Translations under genes and position numbers: made by a program
Shown: positions 49,168-56,552 of the stretch, piece after piece
Layout: each line of letters begins with the position of its first letter
How positions within the stretch are numbered: the first letter of the stretch is position 1
Notes under the pieces: model-generated
Databases searched by the model: none
What the model saw: the letters and a program-made list of their open reading frames with translations, nothing else
What the model was told of the DNA's origin: nothing
Source: an uncultured Acholeplasmatales bacterium
Lineage (GTDB): Bacteria > Bacillota_I > Bacilli_A > Acholeplasmatales > Anaeroplasmataceae
Assembly (NCBI GenBank): GCA_944324795.1
Contig: CALUXR010000001.1
Coordinates: 1 to 64,000, forward strand
Direction: 5' to 3'
Length of the DNA: 64,000 nt

Positions 49168-49288
49168 TTAAAAAAGAAATAGCGACCTTTAACTAGGGTC
49201 GCTACTTCATCGGAGAGTTATAGTTTGTTTATGAAAAAGATATCTATCATTATTAGGGGAAATAATAGATGTGTCTTCCTTAGAAGAC
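49168..49288 (-). ncRNA. Candidate small RNA A (about 120 nt)
   Basis: A conserved intergenic element between rplS and the ABC operon. Read on the minus strand it has a TATAAT box (49295-49300), a hairpin GTCTTC-TAAG-GAAGAC, and a possible outer stem between ATAATA-type arms. A CTATAACTCTCC single strand and a strong terminator follow (TAGCGACC/GGTCGCTA, then a T-rich tail). A homologous element is at 54.0 kb and both keep the same order. No good -35 box is seen, so an activator-dependent promoter or processing from an rplS transcript is possible. Confidence 0.5.
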
Positions 49289-49360
49289 GCCTATATTATA
49301 TAAATTAATTATATTAAAATTATATTAATTTTATGGGAAATTATGTAAAATATAAAATTA

Positions 49361-50155: not shown

Positions 50156-50236
50156 ATGGAGTACTTAGCTATGCTAGCTATAATATTTTTTCTAATATTA
50201 TTAGCTAATAATAGCAATGATAATAAAGATAATTAA
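50156..50236 (+). CDS. 26-residue membrane peptide, candidate type I toxin
   Basis: The peptide starts MEYLAMLAIIFFLILLA and ends in a polar tail rich in N and D. Its size, single span and short unit match Fst/TxpA-type toxins in general form, not in sequence. AAAGGAGG lies 11 bases upstream. A 12-base stretch in the leader (50116-50127) is perfectly complementary to 50256-50267 after the stop, and a minus-strand promoter faces the gene across the terminator. Toxicity is inference; no homologue is recognised. Confidence 0.5.
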   Translation: MEYLAMLAIIFFLILLANNSNDNKDN

Positions 50237-50269: not shown

Positions 50270-50346
50270 ATGCTTAAAGGGGATTCGCCATACACTCGAA
50301 TCCCCTTTTTGACTTATGATGATCGGATTTAAACAGTTTCCTGTTC
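50270..50346 (-). ncRNA. Candidate antitoxin RNA of 50-kb locus
   Basis: The predicted RNA of about 75 nt starts after the TTGACA/TAATAT promoter, forms a small AACAGG-AAA-CTGTT hairpin, and ends in the shared terminator hairpin. It therefore overlaps the 3' end of the peptide mRNA. Its segment complementary to CTTATGATGA could also pair with CTTACGATGA (9 of 10) next to the peptide's ribosome site. This is a layout like the par (Fst) locus. Confidence 0.45.
50276..50310. terminator. Strong terminator shared by convergent RNAs
   Basis: A 12-bp perfect stem AAAGGGGATTCG/CGAATCCCCTTT is followed by TTTTT on the plus strand. On the minus strand the tail is only TTTAAGC, so termination there would be weaker. 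Confidence 0.9.
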
Positions 50347-53229: not shown

Positions 53230-53931
53230 ATGTCTTTTATAACTTTAGAAAATGTTAGTAAAATCTATAAAACCCAAAAAGTAACAACTAATGCCTTAAA
53301 AAATATAAATTTAAAAATTGAAGAAGGAGAATTTGTTACTATCATTGGCGATAGTGGTAGTGGAAAAACTACAATTTTAAATCTAATAGGTGCCCTAGAT
53401 CGTCCTACAAATGGCAATATTTTAGTAGATAATAAAAATATTGGGAAAATGAATAATAAAGAATTAAATAATTATAGAGCTAATGTTTTAGGAATTGTTT
53501 TTCAAAATTATAATTTAATTAATAATTTATCTGTTTTAGAAAATATTATGATTATGAAAGATATTAAAAAAGATATTGCTGATCCTAATATGATTTTAAA
53601 TGAGGTTGGTTTAAGTGATAAAACTTCAAGTTTCCCGCTTGAATTAAGTGGCGGACAAAGTCAAAGAGTGGCGATTGCAAGAGCCTTAGTTAAACAACCA
53701 AAACTACTACTTTGTGATGAACCAACCGGAGCCTTAGATTATGAAAATAGTAAACATATAATAGCTTTATTACGCGATTTAAATCAAAAACATAATATGA
53801 CTACTATCTTAGTAACTCATAATCAAGCCTTTACTAAAGTAGCTGATTTAGTAATTAAACTAAAGGATGGCGAAATCAATGAAATGTATAAAAATGAACA
53901 CCCAATCAGTGCTCATCTATTAGAATGGTAA
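53230..53931 (+). CDS. ABC transporter ATP-binding protein (MacB/LolD type)
   Basis: A 233-residue ATPase: Walker A GDSGSGKTT, Q-loop FQNYNL, signature LSGGQSQR, Walker B LLLCDEPTGALD and H-loop VTHN. The LDRPTNG-type N-terminal region is typical of the LolD/MacB/FtsE group that partners FtsX-like permeases. AAAGGAG overlaps the end of the permease gene. The unit ends at the terminator at 53936. Confidence 0.93.
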   Translation: MSFITLENVSKIYKTQKVTTNALKNINLKIEEGEFVTIIGDSGSGKTTILNLIGALDRPTNGNILVDNKNIGKMNNKELNNYRANVLGIVFQNYNLINNLSVLENIMIMKDIKKDIADPNMILNEVGLSDKTSSFPLELSGGQSQRVAIARALVKQPKLLLCDEPTGALDYENSKHIIALLRDLNQKHNMTTILVTHNQAFTKVADLVIKLKDGEINEMYKNEHPISAHLLEW

Positions 53932-54035
53932 AAAAGCAACCTTATTTAAGGTTGCCTTTTTATTAGGGAGAGTTATAGTTTATTTATGAAAAAGAAATTT
54001 TTCTAGGATAATAGAATTGCCTTCTTTAGAAGACA
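53930..54035 (-). ncRNA. Candidate small RNA B (homologue of A)
   Basis: Clearly homologous to element A over about 130 bp: the same TATAAT box (54041-54046), GTCTTCT/AGAAGGC-type hairpin, perfect outer stem ATAATAG/CTATTAT, AAACTATAACTCTCC and a following terminator. Loop and linker differ by several substitutions and two short gaps, while the stems and the CTCTCC motif are kept. It lies between a plus-strand ABC gene and a minus-strand lipoprotein gene, and no gene follows it on its own strand, which argues against a riboswitch. Confidence 0.5.
53936..53960. terminator. Bidirectional terminator
   Basis: An 8-bp stem GCAACCTT/AAGGTTGC with a 4-base loop has T-rich runs on both sides. It ends the ABC ATPase transcript on the plus strand and small RNA B on the minus strand. 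Confidence 0.85.
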
Positions 54036-54091
54036 CCTCTATTATATAAATTAATTGTATTAAAAATATCTTAAAATAGCTGAAAATTATG

Positions 54092-54928
54092 TTATTTATT
54101 TATAAATTCATAACTTCTAGTACCATCTTCATTACTATTTATTACAAATAGAACCTCACTATCTAAAGTTTCATTTCTAATATAAGCTTTAACTAAACTT
54201 CTATTTCCTCTTTCTAATATTTCATATTTATAAACATTACGTCCTTGTTTATGTTTAAATTCATATTCAATTTCACCATGTTCATATTCTTTTTCAACTT
54301 CAAGCTCTAAAACTAAATTTTTATTATTATATTTTTTATATGTAAAACTTTCTTCATCATCTTCATTTTCTTGTTCTATAACGATATAATTACCAAGTTT
54401 ATCATATAATTTATAACTAACTTCCATTTCATCTTCTTCAACTTCACGTTCCCCAACTAATTCATATGTCTCATCATTATAGATAACTATACCTTTTATA
54501 AAACTTTCATATTCATCATGTTCAACATCATGTAAATATTCATTATAATAATAAGTATATGTATCAACACTATTATCAATTAAATTAATATTTATAATAG
54601 CTTTATTTTCATAATTTTCGTCATCAGATTCAACTATTTCCTTTTTAATAACTTCACTAGCAATTAAATTTTCAACTAACAAGAAGTTATCTATTACATC
54701 TTGTTGTTCATCTTCATTTAATGCTCTTCTTTTTAAATTTGAAACATTACCATTATTTAATAAACCAATACCACTAATACCAGATAACATATAATTATCT
54801 ACATTTAAAACTTCACTTGAATTATTATTACTACCTAAATTTTCAACTTTATTATCTGCCTTATCATTACATGCTGCTAAAGTAACAACAATTCCTAAAC
54901 TTAATAAACCTAATAAATATTTTTTCAT
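54092..54928 (-). CDS. Lipoprotein of sigma/anti-sigma module
   Basis: A 278-residue lipoprotein (lipobox LAAC, Cys near residue 19). The mature part is acidic and beta-rich, with repeated antiparallel-type stretches (TYTYYYNEYLHD, YELVGEREVEEDEMEV, NYIVIEQENEDDE). It resembles the extracytoplasmic part of the anti-sigma protein encoded upstream. The ATG at 54928 is preferred to a TTG at 54943 because GGAGG lies eight bases before it. It is probably in the same regulon or operon as the sigma factor and may be its target or a partner in sensing. Confidence 0.65.
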   Translation of the reverse strand: MKKYLLGLLSLGIVVTLAACNDKADNKVENLGSNNNSSEVLNVDNYMLSGISGIGLLNNGNVSNLKRRALNEDEQQDVIDNFLLVENLIASEVIKKEIVESDDENYENKAIININLIDNSVDTYTYYYNEYLHDVEHDEYESFIKGIVIYNDETYELVGEREVEEDEMEVSYKLYDKLGNYIVIEQENEDDEESFTYKKYNNKNLVLELEVEKEYEHGEIEYEFKHKQGRNVYKYEILERGNRSLVKAYIRNETLDSEVLFVINSNEDGTRSYEFINK

Positions 54929-55014
54929 TTTCTTTTCCTCCAATTTTTTATATTTTTTCTTTTTTCACTTATAATACAAATAAATTAGAGTTTTTATTGG
55001 TAAATTTTAAAAAT

Positions 55015-56049
55015 TTATTTATTTTTTTTAATTTCTTTAAATTCACTATTTTCTAAAACATATAAATAATAAGTCCCATGATCATAAATTCTTAAATCTT
55101 CAAGTTCAAATTCATCATCTTCACTATCACTTTCATATTCAGTTTCAATATAATCTTTTAAATAAGTAAAACTAAACTCACGTTCAACATTATTTTCTTT
55201 TACTTTAATATTAGTTTCTTTTATTCCATCTTCAAATTCTACTTCTTGTTCAATAACTAGATATTCTTTACCATTATTATAATAAGTAAATTCATATGCA
55301 AATTCATCAATTTCCGTTTCTTGATTAACTTTTAAATATGGCATATCATTCATATAGATAATCGTTGTTGTTTCAAATTCTTCATTTTCTTCATTTTCGC
55401 GATGACCTAAAACATCATATCTAATATTATCTATTAATATTAAACCTGAAAAATCAACACTAACTTCATCTAAATCATCTAAATCTTCATAATATGGATT
55501 TGATTCATTATAATAAAATTCAAGATTAGTATTTTCATAATTTAAAGACATATAATATTTATATTCTTTATATTCTTCATTATCATTAATATAAATATCC
55601 ATTTTAATATTATCTTCATTCATAAGCATATTAGCTATTAATAAATATTCATGAATTAAATCAACATCTCTTCTAAAATCAGATTCATCATATCTTCTTA
55701 ACTTTGTACTATTATCATTTAAAATACTTCCAGCTAATATAACTTCTTTAGCAATAACTTCTTTACTTGTTGTTAAATTAACTTTATCTCCTTTATTTAT
55801 AATAGGTTTGTTAGGTTCTATTTTTTCTCTTGGTAAAAATATAAATATTAATATAATTATAATTACAACAAGACTTAAAGATGGTATTAAAGTAAATAAA
55901 TATTTTTTCTTTTTATTTTTTACTTTATTTTCTACTACAGTGACATTATTAAATGTTTCTAATTTAATTAAAACATCGTTAGATTTATCAGGCAAATTAA
56001 TATTATTAGCTTTTGATTTTAACATTTCTTTTAAATCTTTTTTATTCAT
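55015..56049 (-). CDS. Putative membrane anti-sigma factor
   Basis: A 344-residue protein: a cytosolic N-terminus of about 48 residues, one membrane span (about 49-70) and an acidic extracytoplasmic domain of about 270 residues. The start overlaps the ECF sigma gene by four bases (ATGA), the usual arrangement for a sigma/anti-sigma pair. I see no zinc-binding ZAS motif, so the sigma-binding part is of an unrecognised type. The outer domain is similar in layout and wording to the following lipoprotein (for example VDLIHEYLLIANMLMNED against QDVIDNFLLVENLIASE). Confidence 0.65.
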   Translation of the reverse strand: MNKKDLKEMLKSKANNINLPDKSNDVLIKLETFNNVTVVENKVKNKKKKYLFTLIPSLSLVVIIIILIFIFLPREKIEPNKPIINKGDKVNLTTSKEVIAKEVILAGSILNDNSTKLRRYDESDFRRDVDLIHEYLLIANMLMNEDNIKMDIYINDNEEYKEYKYYMSLNYENTNLEFYYNESNPYYEDLDDLDEVSVDFSGLILIDNIRYDVLGHRENEENEEFETTTIIYMNDMPYLKVNQETEIDEFAYEFTYYNNGKEYLVIEQEVEFEDGIKETNIKVKENNVEREFSFTYLKDYIETEYESDSEDDEFELEDLRIYDHGTYYLYVLENSEFKEIKKNK

Positions 56050-56552
56050 ATTTTCACCCTTTCTTTCAATTTCTTTATAGCTTTATTATAAATCCATAAG
56101 ATAGTACCTAAAGGTTTATCAACTATTTTTGCTATATCTTTAAATTTATAATCTAATAAAACATGATAAACTATTATTTCACGCTCAATTTCAGCATCTA
56201 ATAAGCTTAATATTGCCTTAACTTCATAATCATTATAAAAATCTTCTTCTGCGCTTTTAGATAATATTACTTCTTCACTAACAAATTCTCTTTGTTTATC
56301 TTTATATCTATTTAAACTTAAATTACGAGCTATTTTTAATAAATAACCATTATGAAATTTAAATTCATCAATATTATTAATATTTTTTAAAAAATTTAAA
56401 TAGGTATCTTGGACAATATCTAAAGCTTCATCACTATCTTTTAAGATTGCTAAAGAAACTAAATATATTTGTTTGTTAGTCAAATCATAAAAAGATTTAA
56501 AATTAGAATGATTATTATTTTTAAATTCTAAAATATACTCTTTCCATTCCAT
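56046..56552 (-). CDS. ECF-family RNA polymerase sigma factor
   Basis: A 168-residue sigma-70 family protein with only regions 2 and 4. Region 2 contains DSDEALDIVQDTYLNFLKNI and the helix-turn-helix of region 4 is YKFKDIAKIVDKPLGTILW. GGAGG precedes the ATG. It would direct RNA polymerase to a stress regulon controlled by the membrane protein encoded next. The target promoter sequence cannot be read from one locus. Confidence 0.88.
   Translation of the reverse strand: MEWKEYILEFKNNNHSNFKSFYDLTNKQIYLVSLAILKDSDEALDIVQDTYLNFLKNINNIDEFKFHNGYLLKIARNLSLNRYKDKQREFVSEEVILSKSAEEDFYNDYEVKAILSLLDAEIEREIIVYHVLLDYKFKDIAKIVDKPLGTILWIYNKAIKKLKERVKI

Follow-up and report, generated by a model that had tools for sequence, protein, structure and literature searches.

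Two intergenic elements on the minus strand of the window (the whole stretch of 64,000 nucleotides that was analysed), here called A and B, form with a third copy elsewhere in the same genome one family of structured small RNAs, as judged from sequence, with three hairpins that covary. We consider it likely that these RNAs are trans-acting sRNAs, encoded by sibling gene copies under two-component control, that block translation initiation, with lipoprotein mRNAs as candidate targets. The initial annotation had described A and B as homologous, and the two indeed align over approximately 130 bp (BLAST within the genome, E 5e-26). As described, both carry on the minus strand a TATAAT box, a hairpin formed by GTCTTC and GAAGAC, an identical AACTATAACTCTCC and a terminator (Table 1). 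The neighborhoods were also read correctly: A is flanked by rplS and an ABC-transporter gene, which are likewise minus-strand genes, and B is convergent with a plus-strand ABC gene whose 3′ end it faces. A conserved outer stem was likewise proposed, but all five of its pairs are formed in only 24 of 65 copies. Its 5′ arm falls in the promoter/start region and is variable; because its 3′ side, the CTATA of the linker, does not vary, the pairing is broken by changes on the 5′ side. Features beyond the earlier description are a second hairpin whose loop is rich in C (intact in A and degenerate in B, where most of it is lost), an upstream box, and the third copy, which lies beside a two-component system (G000:C2:16973-17100; BLAST within the genome with A as query, E 3e-15). 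Folded from their predicted starts, A, B and the third copy all fold better than dinucleotide shuffles, at z -5.4, -4.8, and -6.5, respectively. The linker is unpaired in the folds of A and the third copy, and its 5′ end folds back in B. A and B would thus each be a gene for an RNA made from its own promoter to its own terminator.

Table 1. Predicted features of elements A and B (window coordinates).
Feature	Position	Strand	Evidence or remark
A upstream direct-repeat box CATAATTTCCCATAAAATTAATATA	49321..49345	-	1 mismatch to consensus; fixed register; proposed response-regulator site
A -10 box TATAAT	49295..49300	-	Sequence; register shared by aligned copies
A predicted transcription start	~49288-49291	-	
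Predicted sRNA gene A, RNA ~49170-49291, ~115-120 nt + U tract	49168..49291	-	Covariance-model match 49168-49296, E 2.5e-17; fold z -5.4
A hairpin 1, GUCUUC/GAAGAC stem	49273..49288	-	Compensatory changes at 6/6 pairs; fold
A hairpin 2 AUCUAUUAUU...AAUAAUGAUAGAU, C-rich loop UUUCCCC	49242..49270	-	Helix 2 covariation; loop C motif in 63/65 copies
A linker AUCUUUUUCAUAAACAAACUAUAACUCUCC: putative anti-AUG CUUUUUCAU + anti-Shine-Dalgarno CUCUCC	49212..49241	-	Near-invariant across copies; unpaired in fold
A intrinsic terminator hairpin + U tract	49170..49204	-	Helix 3 covariation
B upstream box, degenerate, CATAATTTTCAGCTATTTTAAGATATTT	54064..54091	-	Register shared by aligned upstream regions
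B -10 box TATAAT	54041..54046	-	Sequence; alignment
Predicted sRNA gene B, RNA ~53930-54039, ~110 nt, hairpin 2 degenerate	53928..54039	-	Covariance-model match 53922-54042, E 1.9e-13; fold z -4.8
B hairpin 1	54019..54034	-	Sequence; fold
B linker, putative anti-AUG + anti-SD, UUUCUUUUUCAUAAAUAAACUAUAACUCUCCC	53966..53997	-	Sequence; alignment; conservation
B terminator, overlapping 3′ end of convergent ABC-transporter gene	53930..53962	-	Sequence; covariation; fold

Two further observations concern the surroundings of A and B. A tiny plus-strand ORF at 50156-50236 (MEYLAMLAIIFFLILLANNSNDNKDN) has an upstream ribosome-binding site, is preceded by a TAATATTATAATATTA inverted repeat and is followed by a strong terminator (~50275-50311); its product resembles a type I toxin-like membrane peptide. 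On the minus strand, genes for an ECF sigma factor, a putative anti-sigma factor and a lipoprotein form one operon at 54092-56552, and the box of B begins directly past the stop codon of the lipoprotein gene.

BLAST found copies in many relatives. A covariance model built from 41 copies matched 49 of 55 Anaeroplasmataceae genomes (E ≤ 0.1) with 1-7 copies each, most of the genomes being metagenome assemblies and the copy numbers lower bounds. At E ≤ 0.01, 47 of 160 genomes of the order were matched, all of them Anaeroplasmataceae, and a search of 395 class-level genomes returned no copy outside this family. An exact 24-base pattern occurred in 49 stretches among 84,980 species genomes and was absent from viral contigs. 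Usable names among the 49 were Anaeroplasma, Anaeroplasmataceae and Acholeplasmatales, with Erysipelotrichaceae, Mollicutes or Bacillales in a few MAG titles; carriers include the cultured Anaeroplasma bactoclasticum ATCC 27112. Rfam gave no match at gathering score, with only unrelated weak matches at relaxed thresholds, and the papers searched contained no report of this RNA family.

The covariance-model search of related genomes, which the initial annotation had named as a check, returned homologues with covariation well beyond shuffled and slid controls and with conserved promoter and terminator, upholding its view of an unannotated structured RNA family. For the covariation alignment, 85 of 91 matches were accepted, the last six being antisense echoes. 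Changes on both sides were seen at 26 of 26 pairs, in 413 cells, whereas shuffles gave 110 ± 9 and slid controls 68-121; the alignment is fitted to the model, and the counts are inflated by related sequences. Hairpin 1, whose alignment is imperfect (74% paired), nonetheless shows full compensation, for example GUCCUAAUAAGGAC, GUACUCGAAAGGGUAC, and GUAAUCGAAAGAUUAC. In helix 2, 91.9% of cells are paired and double-sided changes occur at 7/7 pairs; its loop is C-rich in 63 of 65 copies (UUUCCC, AUCUCCC, CACUCUCCC). Helix 3, the terminator stem, covaries at 13/13 pairs and is 96.4% paired, its sequence varying freely. Four low-scoring model matches (L146, L147, L148, L151) are a different RNA, and another (L150) is doubtful. 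The four represent a second RNA, conserved and rich in C, that has CTTTTCAAAATAATCTCTCCCAAA and a terminator. Its promoter and a cre-like AAGCGCTTTC site overlap, and its copies include one close to tyrS and a ccpA-like LacI-family gene and another close to citrate synthase; it is a candidate catabolite-controlled sRNA.

The genomic setting of the copies bears on how the RNA would act. In 35 of the 85 accepted copies, including the third copy of the source genome, the element stands directly before an OmpR-type response regulator gene (PF00072 + PF00486), on the same strand and 5-105 nt upstream, and in nearly all of these a histidine kinase gene comes next. The order at the source-genome locus is what we take to be dnaX, ybaB, recR, a DUF1934-like gene, rpoE-delta, the sRNA, regulator and kinase. 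Of 160 genomes of the order, 118 have an ortholog of the regulator, which is single-copy in nearly all. The remaining copies have unrelated genes downstream, and 17 of the 85 face a convergent gene; in the source genus, ABC-transporter genes often flank the dispersed copies. Since downstream genes at the non-regulator loci are unrelated and 17 are convergent, the RNA is not a leader there, and the convergent copies argue for action in trans. They also agree with the earlier statement that neither a riboswitch nor a shared downstream gene explains A and B; a riboswitch or leader serving one co-oriented gene was rejected on the same grounds. One relative carries four short variants that lack hairpin 2, located between ABC-transporter genes (L119; G001:C6: 1830, 2009, 6558, 9518).

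It is unlikely, in this light, that the family is at root a cis-acting leader, a transcription attenuator of the response-regulator operon of which A and B are stray duplicates. The close same-strand placement ahead of the regulator with a terminator in between is what such an attenuator would look like, and in sister families only the regulator-linked element is seen. However, the copies away from the regulator, whether convergent or, as for most others, ahead of unrelated genes, retain promoter, box, linker, terminator and covariation, and at the regulator locus of several genomes a separate TATAAT follows the sRNA terminator.

Most copies other than the regulator-linked ones, A included, have one direct-repeat box (consensus CATAATTTCMCATAATTNTANGATAAT) in fixed register, at a fixed distance from the -10; the last half-site covers the -35 position. 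The box holds 10.8 bits of information across 64 non-redundant upstream regions, compared with a null of 1.0 ± 0.15. With up to two mismatches the box occurs at 17 places in 55 whole genomes, 16 of them directly upstream of an sRNA copy, and a reversed-pattern control gave 0 matches in the same genomes. The 17th lies ahead of another apparently non-coding transcript, unrelated to the family and starting ACTGTCTTAAAGATAG (L156, G031:C64:7606). Within the source genome the box is carried by A, in degenerate form by B, and by a diverged tandem pair at G000:C33, while several regulator-linked copies of the source genus, the source genome's own among them, are without it and have a sigma-A-like -35 promoter. 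The two members of the tandem pair (L086/L149, G000:C33:13716-13990) are small RNAs that have diverged and that follow an FtsX-type ABC permease gene. They carry this box upstream, another 5′ hairpin and CTCTCC motifs, and are apparently further sRNAs under the same control. OmpR-type regulators bind repeats of 10-11 bp. From the location of the box and its resemblance to such repeats, we infer that it is bound by this response regulator.

Between the second hairpin and the terminator lies the nearly invariant unpaired linker CUUUUUCAUAAGCAAACUAUAACUCUCCC, antisense to a ribosome-binding site plus AUG. A and B have CTTTTTCATAAAcAAACTATAACTCTCC in common, and the reverse complement, GGGAGAGUUAUAGUUUGCUUAUGAAAAAG, reads as a Shine-Dalgarno sequence, a spacer and AUG AAA AAG. 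Of the 75 best copies, 70 have CAU and 70 have CUCUCC, and in further genera of Anaeroplasmataceae the spacer is shorter with both ends kept. Sister families have an element ahead of the regulator ortholog with repeats resembling the box, a promoter, CUUCAUUUUUCUCUC, which is antisense to GAGAGAAAAAUGAAG, and a terminator. This element, 62-121 nt before the regulator gene, is shorter than the Anaeroplasmataceae RNA, and it is plausible that the two versions share descent; in a few genomes the regulator is kept and the linker lost. In one sister-family genome (G044; L226, L230), a palindrome, CACATAATTATGTG, overlaps a second promoter immediately ahead of the response-regulator gene, which may reflect autoregulation through the same half-site.

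Linker duplex z-scores were computed for 688 genes from about half of the source genome. With protein classes assigned by a simple script, not a signal-peptide predictor, lipoproteins had a mean of -0.63 (n=42, p 7e-5) and other signal/TM proteins -0.42 (n=108, p 0.003), compared with -0.05 for the rest. The lipoprotein bias is due to the anti-start half of the linker; the C-rich half has no class preference. Starts of the form AUGAAAAA (or GUG/UUG-AAAAA) are found in 52% of lipoprotein genes vs 3% of the rest, and mRNAs for M-K-K signal peptides would be favored because the linker matches AUGAAAAAG. The bias suggests a class of genes, not one gene, and lipoprotein mRNAs are most plausibly the favored targets. 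Duplex scans found no dominant target and no single mRNA with long complementarity, and no gene recurred among matches to GGGAGAGTT-N0-9-ATG. Hits that seemed to recur at the histidine-kinase start are accounted for by conservation at the end of the regulator gene together with AUGAAAAA.

The lack of a target with long complementarity, and conservation of the whole linker length beyond what a seed would need, could also be expected of a 6S-like or protein-sponge RNA whose linker binds RNA polymerase or an RNA-binding protein and pairs with no mRNA. We regard this as improbable, given that neither 6S nor any other Rfam family matches, that the linker is antisense to a start region, a logic that the version in sister families keeps with other spacing, and that C-rich loops and linker motifs are typical of pairing sRNAs in low-GC Gram-positives (PMC4132741). 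Far less credible is a decayed, functionless mobile repeat of MITE/REP type, the fallback of the initial annotation should no covarying homologues and no transcripts appear: there are several dispersed copies per genome and B is partly degenerate, but several genera have kept promoter, hairpins and linker, with compensatory changes, there are only 1-7 copies, a locus beside the regulator recurs, and viral contigs have none. A small protein encoded on either strand is just as hard to believe, for although the antisense strand reads GGAGAG...AUGAAAAAG, an SD-like run plus ATG, in nearly all copies, its ORFs span 3-36 codons, are unrelated and are broken by indels, and 27 of 65 copies lack an ATG ORF on the RNA strand altogether.

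In the trans-acting sRNA model, the OmpR-family regulator and its kinase, whose own locus carries an sRNA copy in many genomes, would activate the sRNA genes through the direct-repeat box over the -35. Each gene would yield an RNA of approximately 110-130 nt ending at its own terminator, as promoter, terminator and fold predict. Conservation and fold show that the linker, flanked by two 5′ hairpins and the terminator, is single-stranded and contains an anti-AUG (CUUUUUCAU) as well as an anti-Shine-Dalgarno sequence (CUCUCCC), and that the loop of hairpin 2 holds a second C-rich site. By analogy with csRNAs and LhrC, linker and loop may base-pair with the regions where translation starts and keep ribosomes from entering; the candidate targets, supported statistically, are mRNAs that encode exported proteins with M-K-K signal peptides, lipoproteins included.

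Streptococcal csRNAs (ccn) are homologous copies under CiaR of the CiaRH system, with a TTTAAG-N5-TTTAAG box, a terminator, and unpaired anti-SD and anti-start sequences, CAU being present in 53/61 (PMC3091779), and they act additively on comC (PMC4507080). The present RNAs are similar in having several homologous copies per genome (three in the source genome and up to seven elsewhere, at least two being what defines sibling sRNAs), their own terminator, and an unpaired region between stem-loops with CUUUUUCAU...CUCUCC(C). An OmpR-type regulator acts on csRNAs through a direct-repeat box near the promoter, and control here would be analogous. Unlike csRNAs, they have no NTTAAG-N5-TTTAAG upstream of the -10, carry an extra hairpin with a C-rich loop, and include a copy directly before the regulator gene. 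No sequence relation was shown, the hosts are Anaeroplasmataceae without a cell wall, and no Streptococcus is among the usable names of the 49 exact-pattern stretches. In Listeria, LhrC is a LisRK-dependent multicopy sRNA in which three CUCCC sites block a Shine-Dalgarno (PMC4132741). Multiple copies, a similar length, repeated UCCC sites in a loop and a single-stranded stretch, the two-component link and a Shine-Dalgarno target, here predicted, are shared with LhrC. However, the Rfam LhrC model gave no match at gathering score, the third LhrC site, in the terminator loop, is not recognised here as a fixed motif, and LhrC targets are demonstrated, whereas here the targets are predicted from a statistical bias toward lipoprotein starts. 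Other C-rich sRNAs of low-GC Gram-positives, namely RsaE, FsrA, SprD, and RNAIII (PMC4132741), likewise have UCCC-type pairing sites against Shine-Dalgarno sequences, but with other folds and regulators, and they are not described in that paper as sibling families beside a two-component system. Hence, the RNA resembles csRNAs and LhrC in anatomy and is a member of neither, because box, Rfam result and host lineage differ; by sequence the family is new.

A broader reading, which we offer tentatively and hold to be less probable than the core model, is that the family is an ancient output arm of one two-component system across the wall-less Acholeplasmatales. An anti-RBS sRNA would have been born beside the regulator gene, gained two hairpins in Anaeroplasmataceae, and multiplied there into dispersed siblings that tune the surface lipoprotein repertoire as an envelope-stress response. 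The covariance model and promoter box enable immediate annotation in approximately 50 species. If the proposed mechanism is true, these bacteria would provide a Mollicutes example of a multicopy sRNA regulon under two-component control, convergent with the csRNAs and LhrC of walled relatives, and envelope regulation in wall-less gut and rumen bacteria would become testable in cultured A. bactoclasticum.
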